A stretch of 32,620 nucleotides of DNA. It comes from a virus. Made by a program: the position numbers and the translations under genes. Of this stretch, positions 1,579-32,161 are shown in pieces (position 1 is the stretch's first letter; every line of letters starts with the position of its first letter). Under the pieces are notes generated by a model. It had not been told where the DNA came from and made no database searches. It worked only from the letters and a program-made list of their open reading frames with translations. The stretch is from the IMG/VR virus record IMGVR_UViG_3300017963_000559, positions 1 to 32,620 of that record; one strand, given 5' to 3'.

Positions 1579-1791
1579 TCACCAAGTTCTAGATCTGGAT
1601 CTAGATAAAGTTTTAAATCCAGATCCGGAGTAAAATAAAATTTCGAGACAAAATTTAGTATTAGGCAAAGATTTAGATCTAGAATCAGATCCAGACCAAG
1701 ATTGCGATTTAGATGGAGATCCAGATCTAGATCTAAATCTAGACCGAAACGAAGATTCGAATAGAGCCCAAAATATAAAATTATGATTCAT
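1579..1791 (-). CDS. Ser/Arg-repeat microprotein, copy 3 (most diverged)
   Basis: A 70-residue protein beginning MNHNFIFW, clearly related to the starts MNHSFKYW of the two genes upstream. The middle still shows alternating Ser-X (SRFRSRSGSPSKSQSWSG) and the end SRSRSRTW, while residues about 42-60 have lost the pattern. The leader GGATTATAA before the ATG matches the preceding copy. It starts 13 bases after the stop of copy 2. It is the most decayed of three tandem paralogues built from a TCTAGG-type hexanucleotide. Function unknown; it may no longer be functional. Confidence 0.5.
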   Translation of the reverse strand: MNHNFIFWALFESSFRSRFRSRSGSPSKSQSWSGSDSRSKSLPNTKFCLEILFYSGSGFKTLSRSRSRTW

Positions 1792-1804
1792 TTATAATCC
1801 GCCG

Positions 1805-1951
1805 TTATTTAGCTCTAGATTTATACCAAAACCTAGAACTAGACCAAATCCAAAACCCATAACCAGACCCAGACTTATGCCGAGATCGATATCCAGACCT
1901 AGATTCAAACCAAGGCCGAGATCTAGACCAATATTTAAAGCTGTGATTCAT
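1805..1951 (-). CDS. Ser/Arg/Trp-repeat microprotein, copy 2
   Basis: A 48-residue frame starting MNHSFKYWSRSRPWFE and ending YKSRAK, with Ser at many alternate positions and Arg, Gly, Trp, Lys between. The first eight residues are identical to those of copy 1 upstream. The ATG sits in GGATTATAAATG, 10 bases after the stop of copy 1. Conservation of start, frame, stop and spacer among three units argues that the frame is, or recently was, translated. No domain is recognised. The composition suggests a disordered, basic, possibly nucleic-acid-binding peptide. Confidence 0.55.
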   Translation of the reverse strand: MNHSFKYWSRSRPWFESRSGYRSRHKSGSGYGFWIWSSSRFWYKSRAK

Positions 1952-1961
1952 TTATAATCCA

Positions 1962-2138
1962 TTATCTAGTTCTTGATCTAGATCGAAACTTAGATCCAGA
2001 CTTAGACCTAGACCTAGACCTAGACCAAGACTTAGACCTAGACCTAGACCTAGACTCAGACCAAGGCCAAGACCAAGACCTAGACCTAGACCTAGACCTA
2101 GACCAAGACCAAGACCAATATTTAAAACTATGATTCAT
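1962..2138 (-). CDS. Ser-X dipeptide repeat microprotein (SR/SW rich), copy 1
   Basis: A 58-residue frame: MNHSFKYW, then Ser at almost every second residue to the end (SWSWSRSRSRSRSWSWPW and so on), with Arg most common between and some Trp, Lys and Gly; it ends SRSRTR. Nearly all Ser codons are TCT. The ATG overlaps the stop of the upstream LSm-like gene by 4 bases (ATGA at 2135-2138), the classic arrangement for translational coupling, which is the best evidence that it is expressed. It is basic and disordered, reminiscent of eukaryotic SR tails. No function is known; RNA or DNA contact in partnership with the upstream protein is speculation. Confidence 0.6.
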   Translation of the reverse strand: MNHSFKYWSWSWSRSRSRSRSWSWPWSESRSRSRSKSWSRSRSRSKSGSKFRSRSRTR

Positions 2139-2970: not shown

Positions 2971-3342
2971 TCATTCATCCGCTAAGGGTATTAAAAATTC
3001 TGTAAAATTGCGTTGCCCTCTCTTATCTGCGCATTTTAAAAAATCTTCCATCTTTTCTAGAAAAATGTATCCATCAGGAAAAACAACAGCCATGAAATCA
3101 GCTTTTCTAGATGGCTCATAAATATGTTCTGTTCTAAAGCTAAATGCTTCTTTTCTTTTCTTAAGAGCCTTAACCTCTACATTGAAAGCGCGGGTTCCAT
3201 TATGAATGGTTAGATCAAATCCGGTAGCGTTTTTGTGTTTTATATTTAGAATTTCGAATCTTCTATTTCTTAAAAAATCTATGACTAAATATACCGCCTC
3301 GTCGTGATCAAAACACTTCCAGCCTGTTGCTTGCTTTTTCAA
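2971..3342 (-). CDS. PD-(D/E)XK nuclease-like protein
   Basis: A 123-residue protein. GFDLTIHNGTRAFNVEVKAL reads as the core of a PD-(D/E)XK nuclease: Asp in GFDL, then Glu-X-Lys in VEVKA, preceded by a helix and strand (AVYLVIDFLRNRRFEILNIKHKNATG). Such small phage members act as resolvases or restriction-like or repair endonucleases. It starts at TTG, overlapping the upstream stop by 4 bases (TTGA), with GAGGAAGGAGCGGAG just before. The assignment rests on this single motif, so substrate and activity are open. Confidence 0.55.
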   Translation of the reverse strand: MKKQATGWKCFDHDEAVYLVIDFLRNRRFEILNIKHKNATGFDLTIHNGTRAFNVEVKALKKRKEAFSFRTEHIYEPSRKADFMAVVFPDGYIFLEKMEDFLKCADKRGQRNFTEFLIPLADE

Positions 3343-5470: not shown

Positions 5471-5633
5471 CAATGATTTCCTCAACTCGTTCGTGCATAT
5501 AGTGTGGGATGTTACCGCGCCGTAACCACTGATCTATGGTCGCGTCTGTCTTATAACCCAGCTCATAAGCTAGTAGCATCTTTGAGTTTTTCGGGTTATT
5601 AAGCCAGTGTATTAATTTGTCTTGCAAATCCAT
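5394..5633 (-). CDS. Small HTH DNA-binding protein (Cro-like)
   Basis: A 79-residue protein. LLAYELGYKTDATIDQWLRR has the spacing of a helix-turn-helix with the recognition helix at TDATIDQWLRRG, followed by GNIPHYMHERVEEII, as in small Cro/CI-type phage regulators. The C-terminus is a basic, Ser/Thr-rich tail. The start is fixed by GAGGAG four bases before the ATG; in-frame ATGs further upstream lack this. As first gene of the RecT-SSB operon, with an inverted repeat upstream, it probably regulates its own promoter. Confidence 0.7.
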   Translation of the reverse strand: MDLQDKLIHWLNNPKNSKMLLAYELGYKTDATIDQWLRRGNIPHYMHERVEEIIDGRTTKKRTSVSRKNTSSGSIGQSI

Positions 5634-5661
5634 TTTACTCCTCATATCGCGCAAATCTGTA

Positions 5662-5688
5662 TTTACATCGTATCTAAAATGTTGTAAA
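5662..5688 (-). promoter_or_regulatory. Operator-like inverted repeat with promoter, upstream of HTH gene
   Basis: TTTACATCGT (5662-5671) and ATGTTGTAAA (5679-5688) are near-perfect inverted arms (8 of 10) around 7 bases. On the minus strand the same DNA reads TTTACA, 17 bases, then TAAATA, which is a fair -35 and a weak -10. A regulator bound here would block the promoter, and the adjacent HTH protein is the obvious candidate. The HTH start codon is 29 bases downstream. Confidence 0.4.
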
Positions 5689-5794
5689 CATGTTTTTATG
5701 AAATTTAAAATTAAAATTTATTATGCAATCATAAAGAGACGTTTAGGAAGGCTTCGTTGCTTGTTTTTAGGACATAATAGGACTTATCCGATCA

Positions 5795-6334
5795 TCATTC
5801 CTCCGCCGTGGAATGCGCACGGATTTTACTGCTCACGCTGCCGCCAGGCGATACTTTACCGCTCGCGCCAAACATCGCTATGTCGTACCAACGCAAAAGC
5901 TCGCGGAAAACGCTCATTGAAAACCCAGGACAGGTTTTATAGCGATTAGATTCGTTGTGTCCAAGCCAATCAGAAAAACCTATTTTTCTAGATCGTTTTA
6001 TCATGACATATAAATTTAAAAGCTCACGCATTTGAGCGCGTGTTGGATCTTTTCTTCCGATATAACAAACACCAATCGAATCTTTATTAAGTCCAAGACA
6101 GTGTGCGCCGATTTGATCGATGTCACGACCGCACTCGATAACGCCCGATCTTCGCACTACGAAATGATAACCTATCGCGTCAAAACCCCGAGCGCGATGC
6201 CAACTATCGATGTCGGTCGCGCCGTAACGATCAAAATCACCTATTTCATAAGGAAAATCCGGCGTATCGGAGCAATGCAGTATAACACGCCGTGGGTTAT
6301 TGGGTGCAATGTTTGTAGAGTTTTTCAAATTCAT
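5795..6334 (-). CDS. N-acetylmuramoyl-L-alanine amidase (endolysin)
   Basis: A 179-residue Amidase_2 (T7 lysozyme-like) protein that cuts the lactyl-amide bond between peptidoglycan glycan and stem peptide. Zinc ligands are visible at H20 (VILHCSDT), H126 (LGHNESN) and C135 (KTCPGF); Tyr56 (IGYHF) and Lys133 fit the catalytic pair of T7 lysozyme. WHRARGFDAIGYHFVV and the ECGR/GAHC segments are family hallmarks. There is no wall-binding domain and no signal peptide, so it needs a holin. The ATG at 6334 with AGGCGAG upstream is preferred; it overlaps the lipoprotein gene by 38 bases. Confidence 0.9.
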   Translation of the reverse strand: MNLKNSTNIAPNNPRRVILHCSDTPDFPYEIGDFDRYGATDIDSWHRARGFDAIGYHFVVRRSGVIECGRDIDQIGAHCLGLNKDSIGVCYIGRKDPTRAQMRELLNLYVMIKRSRKIGFSDWLGHNESNRYKTCPGFSMSVFRELLRWYDIAMFGASGKVSPGGSVSSKIRAHSTAEE

Positions 6335-6521
6335 CTCGCCTGAGGCAAACAAACTCGTCAAAATCTTTCGCACTACATGATATATAATCATCTTCTTGTG
6401 CGCGACATATTTTTTGCTCGCTACTATCAGCCGCATAGACCTTAAACGTCATCTTTTCGCGACTCGCGCACGATACCAAGAGAATTAAGAACAAGCTCAA
6501 GCTCGGCAGTATCTTTTTCAT
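6297..6521 (-). CDS. Small lipoprotein in the lysis region
   Basis: A 74-residue protein with signal MKKILPSLSLFLILLVSC; LVSC is a good lipobox, so the mature chain should be lipid-anchored at Cys18. The mature part is charged with four cysteines (KICRAQ, ISCS, FVCLRR, KHCTQ). AAGG lies 6 bases before the ATG. Its place between membrane proteins and the amidase fits an outer-membrane spanin subunit, but it lacks the Pro-rich character usual for Rz1. Superinfection exclusion is another possibility. Confidence 0.65.
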   Translation of the reverse strand: MKKILPSLSLFLILLVSCASREKMTFKVYAADSSEQKICRAQEDDYISCSAKDFDEFVCLRRDEFEKLYKHCTQ

Positions 6522-6660
6522 CTCGCGCCTTTCTTAGACCTGCGTTTACAGTTTGAATACGATCAACGCGAGCGCGTTTATCAGATTCGTTTTGATTAAT
6601 CCATTTAATCAGTTCACGCGTAAGAGCAATAACAGCTAAAAGAAGTTGTATCCAATTCAT
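6442..6660 (-). CDS. Small membrane-anchored coiled protein, lysis region
   Basis: A 72-residue protein with an N-terminal hydrophobic helix (WIQLLLAVIALTRELIKWI), then a charged helical segment of about 45 residues (ESDKRARVDRIQTVNAGLRKARDEKDTAELELVL). This topology, one N-terminal membrane helix and a coiled periplasmic part, is that of an inner-membrane spanin or a small holin. It starts by TAATG overlap with the upstream stop, and overlaps the lipoprotein gene by 80 bases, an embedded arrangement reminiscent of Rz/Rz1. The role is inferred from topology and position. Confidence 0.55.
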   Translation of the reverse strand: MNWIQLLLAVIALTRELIKWINQNESDKRARVDRIQTVNAGLRKARDEKDTAELELVLNSLGIVRESRKDDV

Positions 6661-6953
6661 TAGGCTTCAACCTTAACGAAAAGTCCAATGAGCTTCATAA
6701 CAACCGGCCAGCTTGTATCAAGAAGCTGTTTGCGTTCGTCTTCGTCCAGGTCTTTTAGCTCGTCTCCGATTTTCCAGCTACCAACAACGGCCCTTACGGC
6801 TTCGTCCATTGTAGCACCAACGGTTTGAAAAACCTCTGCAGTGTCTATTTTACCGTCGTCGGCTTTGTGTTTTCCAAGCTCGTCTAAAAGAGCATCGGCG
6901 AATTTAATTACATCCATCGATTCTTCTATGCCGGTTTTTTTCTCGTCAACCAT
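6660..6953 (-). CDS. Small acidic helical phage protein, unknown
   Basis: A 97-residue soluble acidic protein (DVIKFADALLDELGKHK, DGKIDTAEVFQTV, DEDERKQLLDTSWPVVMKL). It looks like a four-helix or EF-hand-sized domain, but no calcium loop is complete. GAGGAG lies 6 bases before the ATG, and its start overlaps the previous gene by 8 bases. It lies in the lysis region between two membrane proteins; similar small acidic proteins are frequent there, with no known role. Confidence 0.6.
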   Translation of the reverse strand: MVDEKKTGIEESMDVIKFADALLDELGKHKADDGKIDTAEVFQTVGATMDEAVRAVVGSWKIGDELKDLDEDERKQLLDTSWPVVMKLIGLFVKVEA

Positions 6954-7194
6954 TTACGACTCCTCTTATTTTGTTAAACGCGTTATTAATGTCGTTTTCT
7001 GTTTTACCCATACGATGGTCTAACAAAATAAGTTTATCATGATCATCTCTAACGTGACGAATGTTCTCTTTTATAACAGCCACATCTACCTGCATTCGAT
7101 CTATTTTTTCAGTGTTTTTTTTAGAAAGCCAAAAGAAAAAACCGCCAAGTACCATGACTTGGCCAAGGGCTGCGCCTATGATTTCAATCGTCAT
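6946..7194 (-). CDS. Holin-like small membrane protein with coiled coil
   Basis: An 82-residue protein: one transmembrane helix at about residues 5-24 (IIGAALGQVMVLGGFFFWLS) followed by a basic KKN and a coiled-coil (DRMQVDVAVIKENIRHVRDDHDKLILLDHRMGKTENDINNAFNKI). This fits a single-span holin or an inner-membrane spanin, encoded a few genes before the amidase. It overlaps the end of the lipoprotein gene upstream by 11 bases. Topology supports a lysis role; the exact part is not resolved. Confidence 0.5.
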   Translation of the reverse strand: MTIEIIGAALGQVMVLGGFFFWLSKKNTEKIDRMQVDVAVIKENIRHVRDDHDKLILLDHRMGKTENDINNAFNKIRGVVNG

Positions 7195-8020
7195 TTTCTA
7201 TGATTCCAAACGCAAAGATGTAAAGAATAACCGCTGGGGCATTGCCCCAATCGAAAAGATTTAGGCTTTTTTCAGGAAGTCTATTTGGTGGAAATATATC
7301 ATCGTTGCCAAGTATACCGAGAGCCACCGCTTGATCGCCATCGGTATACTTATGCCACAATGCCTGGTAAATCGGGGATTGCGGAACATTATCTTTCATC
7401 ACTTCGATGGCGTCAAGCTCTAATGCATTGATCGATCCTGTGACATCGCCTTTAAGAGTTATGTAATCGGCTATAACATTTGCACGGTAACCGCTTACGA
7501 CGTCCCACGGGTCATAATCAATCATTGAATTTAACCTGATTTCATCAAGCATCCATTCAATTAAAAAGCTTAGATGATAAAGATTTGTGTACTCTTTCGG
7601 ACCCTCGCCCATAACCCAACCGTTGGCACGTCCGTAATCTTGAATGTCTTTTATGGCATTCTTATCTCCACGAGCCCAAAGCGCATGCAAGATTCCAAGC
7701 AAAGATTCTGTCGAGATGGCCGAACGGGAATCCTCGGGGTAGCAAGTCTCAACGTCACGATTCCATTTTCCCGCTTCGGGATATTCGTGTTCATAGATTT
7801 CGATGTTTTTTCCGTACGCGTCCCATAGGCCAACAAAAGTGCTACCATCGCAACGATCAACCACAGAATAAACATCATCGAGGGTCTTAACGTAATAGTC
7901 TCTTTTTTGTTTCGCGGCATCATATGGATTAATCGTCTCCTTGCCTTTATGCTCCCAGGCACAGTTTGTTAAAAACAAAACAACAAAAAGAACAATTGTT
8001 TTTGGTAAAAAACGCAACAT
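7184..8020 (-). CDS. Predicted phage-encoded lipoprotein, unknown
   Basis: A 278-residue protein with an N-terminal signal (FLPKTIVLFVVLFLTNC) and a fair lipobox LTNC. The mature domain is helical, rich in Trp/Tyr/Asp (GLWDAYGKNIEIYEHEYPEAGKWN, LLGILHALWARGDKNAIKDIQDYGRANGWVMGEG), and ends in a hydrophobic stretch (APAVILYIFAFGII). The middle part with repeated 'xALWARGD...DY...NGW' resembles alpha/alpha-barrel surfaces but no enzyme family is certain. AGGGAT precedes the ATG. It sits between the fibre gene and the lysis genes. It may be exported to the envelope for exclusion or lysis. Confidence 0.6.
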   Translation of the reverse strand: MLRFLPKTIVLFVVLFLTNCAWEHKGKETINPYDAAKQKRDYYVKTLDDVYSVVDRCDGSTFVGLWDAYGKNIEIYEHEYPEAGKWNRDVETCYPEDSRSAISTESLLGILHALWARGDKNAIKDIQDYGRANGWVMGEGPKEYTNLYHLSFLIEWMLDEIRLNSMIDYDPWDVVSGYRANVIADYITLKGDVTGSINALELDAIEVMKDNVPQSPIYQALWHKYTDGDQAVALGILGNDDIFPPNRLPEKSLNLFDWGNAPAVILYIFAFGIIENDD

Positions 8021-8038
8021 TTAAATCCCTAAAATAGT

Positions 8039-9850
8039 TTACCACTTATTGACTTCAATGTGATTTGGAAGTAGCTCGATTAATGCCCACGACTCTTCAA
8101 GCGTATCATTACCTCTAATAGTCCCTTGTAGATAACTCACGTAAAATTCAACGTCGCTACCATCTGATACAAATGGGGGCGTCTTAGCAGTATAAGTAAA
8201 CTCCCTATTAGCTGTATTAACAGAATCTCGATAAGATAAAAAAGCCAAGTTAGTTGAGCCTTGTCTGATAAATACTTTAGCTTGATTTTGTGTGGCACCT
8301 GTGGTGAATGAACCTGATATTTGAATCTTTACCTGAAATTTTTTACCAGAATCAGGCGCAGTGAATTTAAAAGCGCTGTTGCCAGTAGTGCCAGATAGAT
8401 TTCCAAGTACACCATCATAACTTGCATCCTGATACAGTTTAACTATTTGAAACTCAGTAGGAGGATAACCTACCGGAGATGGTGAAGCACTTTTACGGAT
8501 ACGCCATTTAGCATCAGCAGGAAGAGTACCCCAATCAGTAGAGCCGCCATATCTATAACGTTGGAATTCGACATCTATATTTGTATCATTGCCATCAATA
8601 TGTTCTAAGACTATTCCTACATTTGTATTTCGATCTCCAACAGCTATGTCATTAGAACCAGCGCCAATAACTGGAAGAGGCGTAAAGTTACCATTACCGT
8701 ATAAATCTGCCTCAAAAACCAAACTATCTGTTTGTTGAATGGCCGTAGCGAAGCTAACCCTTTTTTGACGTCTGTCAGTTAGGGTTCCTGGAAAATCAGA
8801 GCCCGTAGCGCTATAAACAAATGAAGTAGTATCTGCCGCATCTGAAGTATCTGAGTTACTGGCAAATTCAACTTGAGAGTTTGCATAGTTTGCTGAACCC
8901 GTCCATTCGGCAATTGGTATATTATCCGCTTTAATTACAAATCGTTGAGAAGCACTAATCCATGCGTTGCCATTTGCTGGAGTTACAGGACTAGAAGCTG
9001 CGCCGCTTGTGTGTAATGCAAAATTAAGATAGCCATCGTCTTTAGTTGCCAAAACAATAGAAGATAATGTAGATGATGTGTCGCGCCACGCTCTACCCAC
9101 TGCTGTTGTTCCAGAACCTTCACCACCTATGGTTAAACCATTAGGTAAAGCTAAACGTCCTTCAGTAGCTGATACTGATCCAGTAGTAGCATAACCGCGA
9201 ATAGACATTGTATCACCAACACGACTCCATTGAAAATTTTCTGAAGACAACGTTCCAAAACCAGCATTAATACTTGGATCTGATGTGTACGTGGTCCAAT
9301 CCACAGTGGGCGTTGAATAAATATATGTTGCAGTACCAAGCCATACGTTATCAATTGTAATTGAAGCTGCATTGGTTGTTGATTTTAATTTAAATTGAAT
9401 TAGACCACTAGATGGACAGTTAAACTGAGCTGCTGTTTTTATCCATGTTGCTGATGGTTCAAGATCGACATTAACAATTTCATCAGATCCGCTGTCTTCA
9501 ACAACCATTTCGATATCACCAGTGGTTGCCGACGCTGACCATTTGTACCACATCGATACAAGGCAGTTTCCAGATTCCTGTAAAGCAGCTTTAGGTGTAA
9601 ATCCCGTTCCCGTTAGCTCTTCACTTGCTGCCGAAGGGTCCCACTGTAAAGACCTTTCACCCCAACCCGATGATGTTGTTGTGGCAAATGTAGAAGATCC
9701 GGTTTTCGTCCATCCTGCTATGCCGTTTTCAAACCCGGGATTTTTAAGACCGTTCCAATCAGCAATATATTGATTATCAACTGTGGAAAGCTGAGAGCTT
9801 GCAGTAAAACTAAAAAACAAAAGACAAAATGCAATAAAAATTCTAAACAT
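8039..9850 (-). CDS. Secreted or virion fibre-like protein with signal peptide
   Basis: A 603-residue protein. The start at MFRIFIAFCLLFFSFTASSQ is chosen because AGGGG lies 7 bases upstream and the segment is a textbook signal peptide; longer starts lie inside the previous gene. Residues about 30-180 look like a carbohydrate-binding beta-sandwich (NPGFENGIAGWTK to ITIDNVWLG). The middle is repetitive beta-rich fibre sequence. The end (FKFTAPDSGKKFQVKIQ to SWALIELLPNH) resembles the C1q/TNF-like trimeric tips of phage fibres. It is probably a receptor-binding or cell-surface adhesin; a signal peptide is unusual for a virion protein. Confidence 0.65.
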   Translation of the reverse strand: MFRIFIAFCLLFFSFTASSQLSTVDNQYIADWNGLKNPGFENGIAGWTKTGSSTFATTTSSGWGERSLQWDPSAASEELTGTGFTPKAALQESGNCLVSMWYKWSASATTGDIEMVVEDSGSDEIVNVDLEPSATWIKTAAQFNCPSSGLIQFKLKSTTNAASITIDNVWLGTATYIYSTPTVDWTTYTSDPSINAGFGTLSSENFQWSRVGDTMSIRGYATTGSVSATEGRLALPNGLTIGGEGSGTTAVGRAWRDTSSTLSSIVLATKDDGYLNFALHTSGAASSPVTPANGNAWISASQRFVIKADNIPIAEWTGSANYANSQVEFASNSDTSDAADTTSFVYSATGSDFPGTLTDRRQKRVSFATAIQQTDSLVFEADLYGNGNFTPLPVIGAGSNDIAVGDRNTNVGIVLEHIDGNDTNIDVEFQRYRYGGSTDWGTLPADAKWRIRKSASPSPVGYPPTEFQIVKLYQDASYDGVLGNLSGTTGNSAFKFTAPDSGKKFQVKIQISGSFTTGATQNQAKVFIRQGSTNLAFLSYRDSVNTANREFTYTAKTPPFVSDGSDVEFYVSYLQGTIRGNDTLEESWALIELLPNHIEVNKW

Positions 9851-29654: not shown

Positions 29655-29992
29655 TTTTCAATTTTATACGCTAACGTAAATGGTTTATCGGGATTAGACT
29701 GAACCTCGTGTTTATCCGTCCATCCGCAAAGATTTTTCAAACAAAAAATAAGCATTGCTGGATGGCCGTTTTTTGCCATGTCTAATGCCTTTCTAATCAA
29801 TGCATTACGGGTTACAACCATGTTTTGTTCACGAAACTCCGAAAATGTTAATTTCGTGTGGCGTTTGATTTGTTTTTCAATCGTTGACGGATTGACCTTA
29901 AAAAACGCCGCGCAATCGACAAGCGTGGGCTTTAGTCGACAAAGCGCGGCGAGTTGTTCTAAATCTACTTTTTCACGGCCCTTAGCTGGCAT
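29651..29992 (-). CDS. terS: Terminase small subunit
   Basis: A 113-residue protein. DLEQLAALCRLKPTLVDCAAFFKVNPSTIEKQIKR is a helix-turn-helix of the terminase small-subunit type, and KNGHPAMLIFCLKNLCGW is the conserved oligomerisation part seen in many phage TerS proteins (the pattern 'Ak.Gn..mlif.LKn..gw'). The ATG at 29992 has GGAG 5 bases upstream and shares one base with the previous stop. It recognises the packaging start and hands DNA to the large subunit. Confidence 0.85.
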   Translation of the reverse strand: MPAKGREKVDLEQLAALCRLKPTLVDCAAFFKVNPSTIEKQIKRHTKLTFSEFREQNMVVTRNALIRKALDMAKNGHPAMLIFCLKNLCGWTDKHEVQSNPDKPFTLAYKIEK

Positions 29993-30927
29993 CAATACTC
30001 CGTTATTGATGATGATTCAGATCCGGATGAAAAGTCTATTTTCATAAGACCATAATCAACATAGCGCATATAAACATCCGAATCACTAGCACAGTTAACA
30101 ACAACAGGTGCATCATCGAACGTAAGGCCAAGCTTTGATACATCTGGTCTATTCCAGAATTTTGATTTTGCCGATGACGCACCATAACTTGTATCGGAAG
30201 ATCCAACAGCATCTAAAGAATAAATACTTGCCGATGTGTAAATAAAATCCATTTTATCCTGTCCATTTGCGTCACTATCGGAGATGACAGAATTTCCGGC
30301 AAGGTTAATTCCGTAAAGAGCCTGGTACTCTTTCCATTCGTCACCACGAGCTTTCCAATCTGTTTTAGTTTCAAAAGAAGCGTCTGATTTAATGGCAAAC
30401 GACTCAATAAGACACCAATCAATTGATGTTAGATTGGATTCCATCGCGTTAGGATTCCACGTTGTATTTGGATAGGACGCGTCGTTTTCTGTGCCAAGAA
30501 TATACTGAGCTTTCCACGCATTGGCAAAACAGATCATCTCATTTGAATGAATGTAATCAACCTTTGCGTTAAACGCTTCGCGACTGTTTGTTGTTGCTGT
30601 TCCATAATCGTATCCGGCTTCGTCCATAAAAATGCCATCAATGTCAAGAGTTTTCCACTCATCGACTTTAGTTTTGAAATTAGAAAACGTTTGATTAACT
30701 GTGACATAACCGAAAATTTGAACATCTGGATTTAACGCTTTAACTCGTGGAAGAATAGACTGTGTATTTGAATAGTCTCCGTGTGATGAACTTTGAATCC
30801 CGTCTCCTATCACCAAAAGATGATACTTAGCAAGCTCTTGTGCGACCTTTTCATTTGTCCAGCTATTTGTTGCTGAATTAAAAGAATTTAACCATCCGTA
30901 GTATACCAATAGATTTTTGGGTTTCAT
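29992..30927 (-). CDS. Glycoside hydrolase-like TIM-barrel protein
   Basis: A 311-residue protein. The pattern LLVYYGWLNSFN, then LLVIGDGIQSSSHGDYSNTQ, then IFGYVTVNQ and DIDGIFMDEAGYDYG (D102, E103), then MICFANAW and CLIESFA is that of a TIM barrel with carboxylates on successive strand ends, as in spherulation-specific family 4 / GH114-like putative glycosidases. Such domains occur in phage fibres and depolymerases. The ATG at 30927 with GGGAG upstream is chosen over an earlier in-frame one. No signal peptide. It is encoded between the methyltransferase and terminase genes. Confidence 0.65.
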   Translation of the reverse strand: MKPKNLLVYYGWLNSFNSATNSWTNEKVAQELAKYHLLVIGDGIQSSSHGDYSNTQSILPRVKALNPDVQIFGYVTVNQTFSNFKTKVDEWKTLDIDGIFMDEAGYDYGTATTNSREAFNAKVDYIHSNEMICFANAWKAQYILGTENDASYPNTTWNPNAMESNLTSIDWCLIESFAIKSDASFETKTDWKARGDEWKEYQALYGINLAGNSVISDSDANGQDKMDFIYTSASIYSLDAVGSSDTSYGASSAKSKFWNRPDVSKLGLTFDDAPVVVNCASDSDVYMRYVDYGLMKIDFSSGSESSSITEY

Positions 30928-30940
30928 ATAAAGCTCCCTT

Positions 30941-32161
30941 TTATAGTTTAACATGCTTTTTACCAGAAAAAGCTTCCCAGCGTTCTATTATAACCTGAAC
31001 ATAATGAGGATCTATTTCCATGCCGTAGCATTTGCGAGAAGTTTTTTCGCAAGCTATGAGAGTTGAGCCAGAACCAAGAAATAGATCAAGAACTAGCTGA
31101 CCTTTGTTAGAACTATGTTTTATTACGTGCGAACATAACTCTGTAGGTTTCTGAGTAGGATGCCCTAGACCTTCAGTAGCTACATGTATTTTATTAAAAT
31201 TCCAAGATGCTAGTGCGTGACCGCTATCGGGGAAATTAAAAACGTGTTTACCTATAGTAAAATAGCAACACAGTTCACTATTCCAACTCCAATGACGTTT
31301 CATTAAAGACGGCATTGGGTTTGGTTTAGACCAAACATTCCAGCCTGTAAATTTAGCCCAATCCGACAAGCCTTCTACTATTCTAGAAAACAAAAAATGA
31401 CTACACCATATGTATACACTTCCGTTTTCTATGATACTTTTTATTTGTTCTAACGCCTTCTCAATTTCAAAACCCTTATCCCAATCTGAATTTTTTAAAT
31501 CATTCATGGCCCTTGAAACCGACGCAGCAACGTTTTTAGAATTAGACGCTACGTTATACGGCGGATCAGTAAAAACCATATCAGCTTTTTGACCGTCCAT
31601 TAGCCTATCAACGTTTTCTTTCACGGTACAATCAGCGCATAAAACCCTATGATCACCTAGTTGAAATAGATCGCCTGGTTTCACCCAAACATCTTTTTCC
31701 TCAACATCGGGAACCTCGTCGGGATCGGTTTGACCCGATATGTCACCCGAAAATCCGATAATGTCATCAAGCTGGTCTTTTTCAAAACCTAAAATATCAA
31801 GATCAAAATCCTCGGATTTTAAATCAAGAATATCAAGCTTTAAAAGCTCATCGTCCCATTCCGAATTGAGGGTAAGCTGATTATCCACAATACCGTATGC
31901 TTTGGCCTGTGTTGGCGTTAAATGCTTTAGGTATATACACGGCACTTTTTTAAGACCGAGCTTTTCGGCGGCCATTACGCGCCCGTGTCCGGCTATTATT
32001 GTCGAATCGTCTTTTAAAAGAACCGGGGAATTAAAGCCGAATTCTTTGATGGACGCTGCAATCTGAGATACCTGATTTTGCGAATGTTTTCGTGCATTTC
32101 TGGCATATGGAATTAGCCCAGAAAGCTCACGATATTCAATGTTAAGTTCCAAAGTGTTCAA
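30941..32161 (-). CDS. ParB-domain DNA adenine/cytosine-N4 methyltransferase
   Basis: A 406-residue fusion. Residues about 8-95 are a ParB/Srx-type N-terminal domain (IPYARNARKHSQNQVSQIAA, GHGRVMAAEKL). Residues about 155-400 are an amino-methyltransferase with DPPY at 199-202, HPTQKP at 334-339 and the AdoMet motif FLGSGST at 361-367, in the order typical of beta-class enzymes. It probably methylates phage DNA to evade host restriction. The ParB part has no parS-binding HTH. The first codon is TTG with AAGGA close by; a TTG three codons later (32152) has better spacing. Confidence 0.85.
   Translation of the reverse strand: MNTLELNIEYRELSGLIPYARNARKHSQNQVSQIAASIKEFGFNSPVLLKDDSTIIAGHGRVMAAEKLGLKKVPCIYLKHLTPTQAKAYGIVDNQLTLNSEWDDELLKLDILDLKSEDFDLDILGFEKDQLDDIIGFSGDISGQTDPDEVPDVEEKDVWVKPGDLFQLGDHRVLCADCTVKENVDRLMDGQKADMVFTDPPYNVASNSKNVAASVSRAMNDLKNSDWDKGFEIEKALEQIKSIIENGSVYIWCSHFLFSRIVEGLSDWAKFTGWNVWSKPNPMPSLMKRHWSWNSELCCYFTIGKHVFNFPDSGHALASWNFNKIHVATEGLGHPTQKPTELCSHVIKHSSNKGQLVLDLFLGSGSTLIACEKTSRKCYGMEIDPHYVQVIIERWEAFSGKKHVKL

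Follow-up and report, generated by a model that had tools for sequence, protein, structure and literature searches.

What are the three short serine-rich reading frames that lie in tandem behind a small gene of a phage, and does this arrangement reach beyond the phage in which it was noticed? The window, that is, the whole stretch of DNA analysed here, is a 32.6-kb virus record, an environmental tailed-phage contig. The initial annotation had described three consecutive frames in which serine alternates with another residue (Ser-X). Their starts, ends and gaps were all confirmed on the minus strand (Table 1), with a spacing of 10 nt between copies 1 and 2 and of 13 nt between copies 2 and 3. 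Copy 1 had been called nearly perfect and copy 3 worn, and this held. The tail of copy 1 is a nearly perfect alternation of Ser with Arg, Trp and Lys. In-phase Ser was counted at 22/30, 10/25 and 18/36 positions of copies 1, 2 and 3, and off-phase Ser at 1/29, 2/24 and 1/35. The repeat unit of copy 1 is a hexamer, as had been claimed, with a period of 6, 19.8 copies and a score of 161, and its X codons were AGG (10), TGG (5) and AAG (3). The array of copy 2 was mixed in codon make-up. Copy 3 had drifted to AGA (6), GGA (4) and AAA (2), by which Arg, Gly and Lys were retained and the GG of the repeat was lost.

Table 1. Positions in the window of the partner gene, the Ser-X frames and their shared elements
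Feature	Position	Strand	Basis
Sm-fold (LSm-like) partner gene, 86 aa	2135..2395	-	AF2 pLDDT 93.3; Foldseek PDB; Ser-X ORFs after homologues
Ser-X microprotein copy 1 (ORF1), 58 aa, MNHSFKYW...SRTR	1962..2138	-	ORF
Ser-X microprotein copy 2 (ORF2), 48 aa, MNHSFKYW...SRAK, tail partly worn	1805..1951	-	ORF
Ser-X microprotein copy 3 (ORF3), 70 aa, MNHNFIFW...SRTW, tail worn	1579..1791	-	ORF
ATGA stop/start overlap, partner gene with copy 1	2135..2138	-	sequence
Hexamer array in copy 1, coding strand TCT AGG / TCT TGG	1998..2116	-	TRF

The ATGA that was said to join copy 1 to the upstream gene was also found. A start context, GGATTATAAATG, is common to the Ser-X copies, and in copy 1 the 3′-terminal coding bases of the partner gene (GGATTGTTAAAATGA) take its place. 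It therefore appears, as an inference, that each duplication carried the 3′ end of the partner gene along. The neighbours of these genes in the window include RecT-like and RuvC-like proteins. Scans of the window with Rfam models and for tRNAs gave no match and no tRNA, respectively.

Judged from the compared sequences, the family is far wider than the window phage. We scanned IMG/VR with the DNA pattern (TCTNGG)5TCT and kept 119 loci among the matches listed. The Sm-fold gene was present in 68 of them (again among the matches listed), nearly always just upstream and on the same strand. The reverse test, which is free of this DNA bias, chose loci by the partner protein alone, from either of its two subfamilies. 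Among the 66 subfamily-1 loci, 65 had a Ser-X ORF downstream (59 detected by script and six shorter ones by eye), L141 being the sole exception. About 63 of the 69 subfamily-2 loci had one as well (65 by script, of which L258 and L262 look spurious). The initial annotation had suggested looking for Ser-X proteins beside LSm-like genes in other phages, and these two samples answer it. When the partner homologues were combined in a set partly fetched by the hexamer, 157 of 164 were followed by a Ser-X ORF. As the protein-only samples agree with this, chance is excluded as the explanation of the arrangement in the window. Two narrow protein patterns retrieved 251 and 364 partner relatives in phage contigs. 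In L141, an ordinary short ORF (MKNYRIVYSEQKKKYKIQYK...) occupies the Ser-X place with an ATGA overlap, 3′ of the match end at 3258.

The commonest single position of the Ser-X start in the relatives was -1 (ATGA or GTGA). The 555 other neighbours that lie within 3.5 kb contain no family seen at more than 10 of the roughly 125 loci. Thus, on the evidence of gene neighbourhoods, the two genes are travelling together through otherwise different phages. The regions around the pair contained genes of replication and recombination, namely those for DnaB helicase, Sak4 and Erf annealing proteins and Holliday junction resolvase. The earlier idea of a duplicating family stood only in part: tandem copies do share one leader, but 97 of 127 phages had a single Ser-X copy and it is the Sm-fold partner that is the constant feature. 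Since some IMG/VR loci are shared between the samples and phylogenetic independence is lacking, the counts refer to contigs and not to events.

The exact leader pattern of the window had no match in IMG/VR. A phage collection of 50,697 records gave only two matches, both environmental and from Manatee Spring, with the genes unannotated or hypothetical. A plasmid collection gave no match. In a genome collection, matches were confined to four MAG contigs, the host of which is doubtful; Ser-X was present on three. It seems that the Sm-fold gene and its downstream Ser-X microprotein or microproteins form a real gene pair of hundreds of environmental phages, translated and under selection, the job of which is unknown. 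A minority of the Ser-X arrays had no detectable partner. Clusters of this kind were observed in L129 (~5548-8171, +), L103 (12869-13467, -), L051 (2219-2794, +) and L044 (6212-6443, +), and in some of them the tandem copies were many (at least 10 in L129). Either the partner has diverged past the profile in these clusters or the microprotein lives alone.

The initial annotation had taken the ATGA overlap to imply translation. We have no expression data; the comparative evidence strongly supports that the Ser-X frames are translated and under selection. An upstream ATG was found in the Ser-X frame of 103 of 137 arrays, and in the other two frames of 17 and 12. The Gly-Leu frame (GGT CTN, N being silent) was considered as the coding frame and rejected, as its count was the 17. 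Ser was kept even where the dominant codon differed between phages, which have TCT, TCG, TCA or AGC arrays. No single silent change connects AGC with TCN, and the retention of Ser across both kinds of array therefore indicates coding. Since tandem copies within a phage offered too few sites for pN/pS, leaders were compared between phages. Leaders of the RGLKQK type gave pS 0.90 and pN 0.21, and those of the TKRxKxR type gave pS 0.80 and pN 0.15. Overall, pN/pS of the leader peptides was about 0.2, that is, they were conserved through heavy silent change. The leaders of subfamily 1 were mostly basic (RGxKQK[WY]R, TKRxKxR, TRKxLYR) and those of subfamily 2 resembled MNAxxLRxGFD, so the leader type tracks the partner subfamily.

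The partner is Sm-like in its predicted fold. The AlphaFold2 model of the window partner, built on an alignment of 64 sequences (pLDDT in Table 1), had a helix at residues 13-17 followed by strands. It met the definition of the Sm fold, an N-terminal helix and a bent five-stranded barrel, and the best 50 Foldseek matches in the PDB were nearly all Sm/LSm chains. The upstream gene had been called LSm-like, which is borne out as far as a modelled fold can do so. Subfamily 2, with about 20% identity to subfamily 1, was joined to it through iterated profile search. Its model, from its own alignment, again matched mostly Sm/LSm chains in the PDB, with weaker E-values; the query carried a low-confidence tail. 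Archaeal Sm proteins were among the matches of both (1m8v and 1h64 for the window partner, 1i8f for subfamily 2). Searches of Pfam, PHROGs and NCBIfam gave no Sm, LSm or Hfq model and no clear family for the partner, the only matches being weak ones to the MM0924 family in 15 of 65 members. A profile search against PDB chains found none. Given a fold supported by models and no match to a curated family, we call the partner Sm-like in fold only; it was not shown to belong to any named Sm or Hfq family, to form a ring or to bind RNA.

Like Hfq and the archaeal SmAP proteins, the partner is a small single-domain Sm fold from a microbe-associated genome. It differs from them in an insert of about 15 residues between beta-strands, and hhalign with E. 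coli Hfq gave a probability of 0.24%, which is no support. We know of no Ser-X neighbour in Hfq or SmAP systems. Predicted Sm-fold phage proteins in BFVD, such as A0A4D6T6Q3 ('RNA binding protein', Gordonia phage Reyja) and A0A6J5KXD6 ('Sm-like domain containing protein'), are like the partner in fold, but identity was low (6-22% among the matches listed).

In the microprotein, which has a median length of 61 aa, a conserved leader (about 8-12 residues) precedes a low-complexity (Ser-X)n tail. No Pfam match above cut-off was obtained for it. Across arrays, Ser occupied 0.886 of the in-phase and 0.013 of the off-phase positions. In about 88% of the units, X was one of Gly, Trp and Arg; Arg made up 25-34% of X, and Gly (about a third) and Trp were as common as Arg. 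None of the 102 arrays with at least 15 units was without Trp or Arg, and four were without Gly. The Trp share of X, about 26%, lay at 0.25-0.29, and its scatter was no more than binomial (chi2/df 0.96, 0.76 and 1.02). A higher genomic GC did not lower it: rho was +0.07 in one set and, in the two samples chosen by protein, +0.27 and +0.26 (P ~0.04). The same codon position does show GC pressure, in the switch from AGG to CGG.

The order of the X residues showed almost no autocorrelation. Near-identical phages, with 0 differences in the 260 nt of partner compared, had arrays that differed by in-frame blocks of, for example, 6, 48 and 84 nt. Length change that preserves the frame, as the hexamer unit had suggested, is therefore seen as whole-hexamer blocks in most such pairs; in one pair, L067/L107, the arrays differ by 51 nt and more deeply. 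Within-array diversity was 0.06 at S3 and 0.66 at X1. Among 119 arrays, 74 had less than 5% CGG and 25 had at least 95%. As silent choices are mostly uniform within arrays and X1 is diverse, an array seems to be put together from three kinds of unit (SR, SG and SW) in shuffled order and not to vary at one free base. The comparison of arrays demonstrates selection on the residue composition of the tail, with the order not kept. This is what is looked for in condensate proteins, namely, composition conserved and order scrambled, although droplet formation with RNA was not shown.

Three other sources of the variation were considered and rejected. That the N of TCT-N-GG is free or hypermutated does not agree with the rarity of arrays mixing AGG and CGG (13 of the 119), nor with a Trp share that does not fall with GC. 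Adenine-specific mutagenesis by a diversity-generating retroelement was rejected because A is fixed at the Ser positions of AGC and TCA arrays, and most arrays are uniform in their use of A or C at X1. Single-hexamer slippage cannot be the source of the order, as identical neighbours were not in excess (lag-1 identity 0.263, 0.274 expected). We also observed that TCC dominates among the Ser codons of just 1 of 123 arrays. TCC NGG would give CCNGG in each unit, and this palindrome is a target of several restriction enzymes; that the site is avoided is a guess.

What might such a pair do? We tentatively propose, at somewhat less than even confidence, a two-component ribonucleoprotein cassette, made of an Sm-fold protein and a separately encoded, disordered basic tail that acts by its composition. 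The first gene would give the small Sm-fold protein, for which a ring is possible by analogy. The second gene, which usually overlaps or abuts the stop of the first and is sometimes tandemly duplicated, would give a leader that docks on the Sm-fold protein and so ties the tail to its partner. The flexible tail could then make many weak contacts with RNA or ssDNA through Arg and Trp, which may also be sticky towards each other, with Ser and Gly mainly as spacers. The pair would be a nucleic-acid-binding or condensing particle of the phage, which would handle RNA or ssDNA early in infection, in the first stages of replication and recombination. The modelled Sm fold, the coding status, the gene linkage, the basic charge of the microprotein (median +9) and the selection on composition and not on order are established here; no binding, ring or RNA contact has been. 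The leader type that tracks the partner subfamily and the setting among replication and recombination genes also speak for the cassette. Tail disorder is itself only weakly supported. In the AlphaFold2 model of a read-through chain of subfamily 2, the leader was a weak helix and the tail had low confidence (pLDDT 39-47); this is consistent with disorder, but almost no alignment existed for the tail, and the model was uninformative on docking. The lack of a sequence match between the partner and Hfq or the Pfam Sm families counts against the cassette, and so do the arrays without a detectable partner. In addition, a tail acting by composition only would not need such strict Ser alternation, which the hexamer units would explain.

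Several known proteins resemble the pair in part. SmB, SmD1 and SmD3 of eukaryotes join an Sm fold to a low-complexity, Arg-rich dipeptide tail, and the pair would be a split version, with the Sm protein and its RG tail on separate genes. SmB and SmD3 bear multiple RG repeats (PMC10578488). In these proteins the tail is in the same chain. The phage encodes it apart, in a gene that has a leader of its own, is coupled in translation to the partner and may occur in duplicate, and its sequence is one of Ser alternating with R, G or W; a sequence relation was not shown. The likeness to SR tails that was suggested at first holds only in part: Ser-Arg repeats occur, as in the serine/arginine-rich splicing factors, but the phage tail is Ser-[Arg/Gly/Trp] and not SR alone. 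Trp and Gly are as frequent as Arg in it, and the setting is a phage. Membership in the SR proteins fails because the chain has no RRM domain, which does not exclude that it works like a dipeptide tail. The RG segment of coilin is also a short Arg/Gly-rich chain with Trp. A peptide of it forms droplets with RNA, and serine is counted among the stickers (PMC10881997). Unlike that segment, the phage tail alternates strictly with Ser, and its condensation is undemonstrated.

The microprotein might instead be an effector directed at the host, blocking a ribonuclease, RNA polymerase, the ribosome or a defence protein, with the tail engaged in an arms race and the Sm-fold protein as its partner or regulator. 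Small phage proteins often act on host factors, and phages with no difference in the compared stretch of the partner gene do have different tails. However, most of these changes rearrange blocks of the same three units, and the composition is the same in both subfamilies and in phages that otherwise differ widely, unlike that of a tail chasing changing targets. We consider this explanation unlikely, if still a live possibility. The strictness of the alternation and the four tail strands drawn by AlphaFold2, at low confidence, could point to a structural assembly, in which Ser lies on one face of a beta-strand and R, G or W on the other, and the tails stack into sheets or fibres nucleated by the Sm-fold protein. 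This is rather improbable: the strands have only the low pLDDT given above, Arg and Gly, at about a quarter and a third of X, disfavour tight sheets, and the order of X is random.

The array could also matter as DNA or RNA, for example as a G-rich repeat, a recombination hot spot or a site in its own mRNA bound by the Sm-fold protein, the peptide being secondary. X is NGG in 81-90% of the units, which places GG at every six bases in most arrays, and the arrays change through block indels. Nevertheless, the pentamer between the variable bases varies by phage with the dominant Ser codon, and copies 2 and 3 of the window use AGA, GGA and AAA. Moreover, the leaders are under amino-acid selection, and the silent choice of AGG or CGG follows GC while the residue shares stay level. 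A nucleic-acid-level element is thus improbable. A membrane-active or toxic peptide controlled by the Sm-fold gene seems very improbable. Arg/Trp peptides can be membrane-active, and the microprotein is rich in both, with a median net charge of +9; but with Ser at about 38% and Gly at 14% it is only weakly hydrophobic, it has no hydrophobic segment, and its gene lies with replication genes and not with lysis genes. Finally, there is hardly any room for a functionless microsatellite that is open by accident: hexamer repeats expand easily and some partnerless hits are plain simple repeats (e.g. L015, L026, L047 and L069), but these are largely runs of a single dipeptide, whereas the arrays linked to a partner contain R, G and W together, with a median entropy of 1.89 bits, and keep their frame, linkage, composition and conserved leaders, and the protein-only samples argue strongly against it.

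Returning to the cassette, its broadest form would be a widespread phage ribonucleoprotein system, in which an order-free S-[R/G/W] tail gathers RNA or ssDNA together with the Sm-fold protein and the cassette is the unit of inheritance. The binding is inferred, and we regard this extension as doubtful. If the Sm-fold partner does bind RNA, phages own an Sm-like particle with a separate tail. Hundreds of phage contigs contain the partner, and the tail gene was present in nearly every one examined, yet the partner is recognised by no Pfam or PHROG model; short repetitive ORFs such as Ser-X are easily skipped in annotation. The microproteins had been thought undescribed, and no earlier description of the pair was found in the open-access literature searched (subscription journals and preprints were outside the scope). 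The arrays amount to a natural experiment on low-complexity proteins, in which the alphabet and the tryptophan share are kept, the order is scrambled and the codons are swapped. The idea that a flexible tail needs a composition and not a sequence becomes directly testable.

Some other genes of the window, all on the minus strand, were noted. A 71-aa ORF at 1340-1555, directly 3′ of the Ser-X copies, has a lipoprotein-like start (MKILMSLILLLMLTTTGC). The gene at 2519-2893, two genes upstream of the Sm-fold gene, matched DUF7694 above cut-off and phrog_7839; its function is unknown. The gene at 2971-3342 had a sub-threshold NOV_C match (E 0.0015) and is possibly a small nuclease-like protein. 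A 320-aa ORF at 29992-30954 gave, from its translation only, the impression of a TIM-barrel protein of glycosidase type, which would be unexpected beside terminase-like genes.
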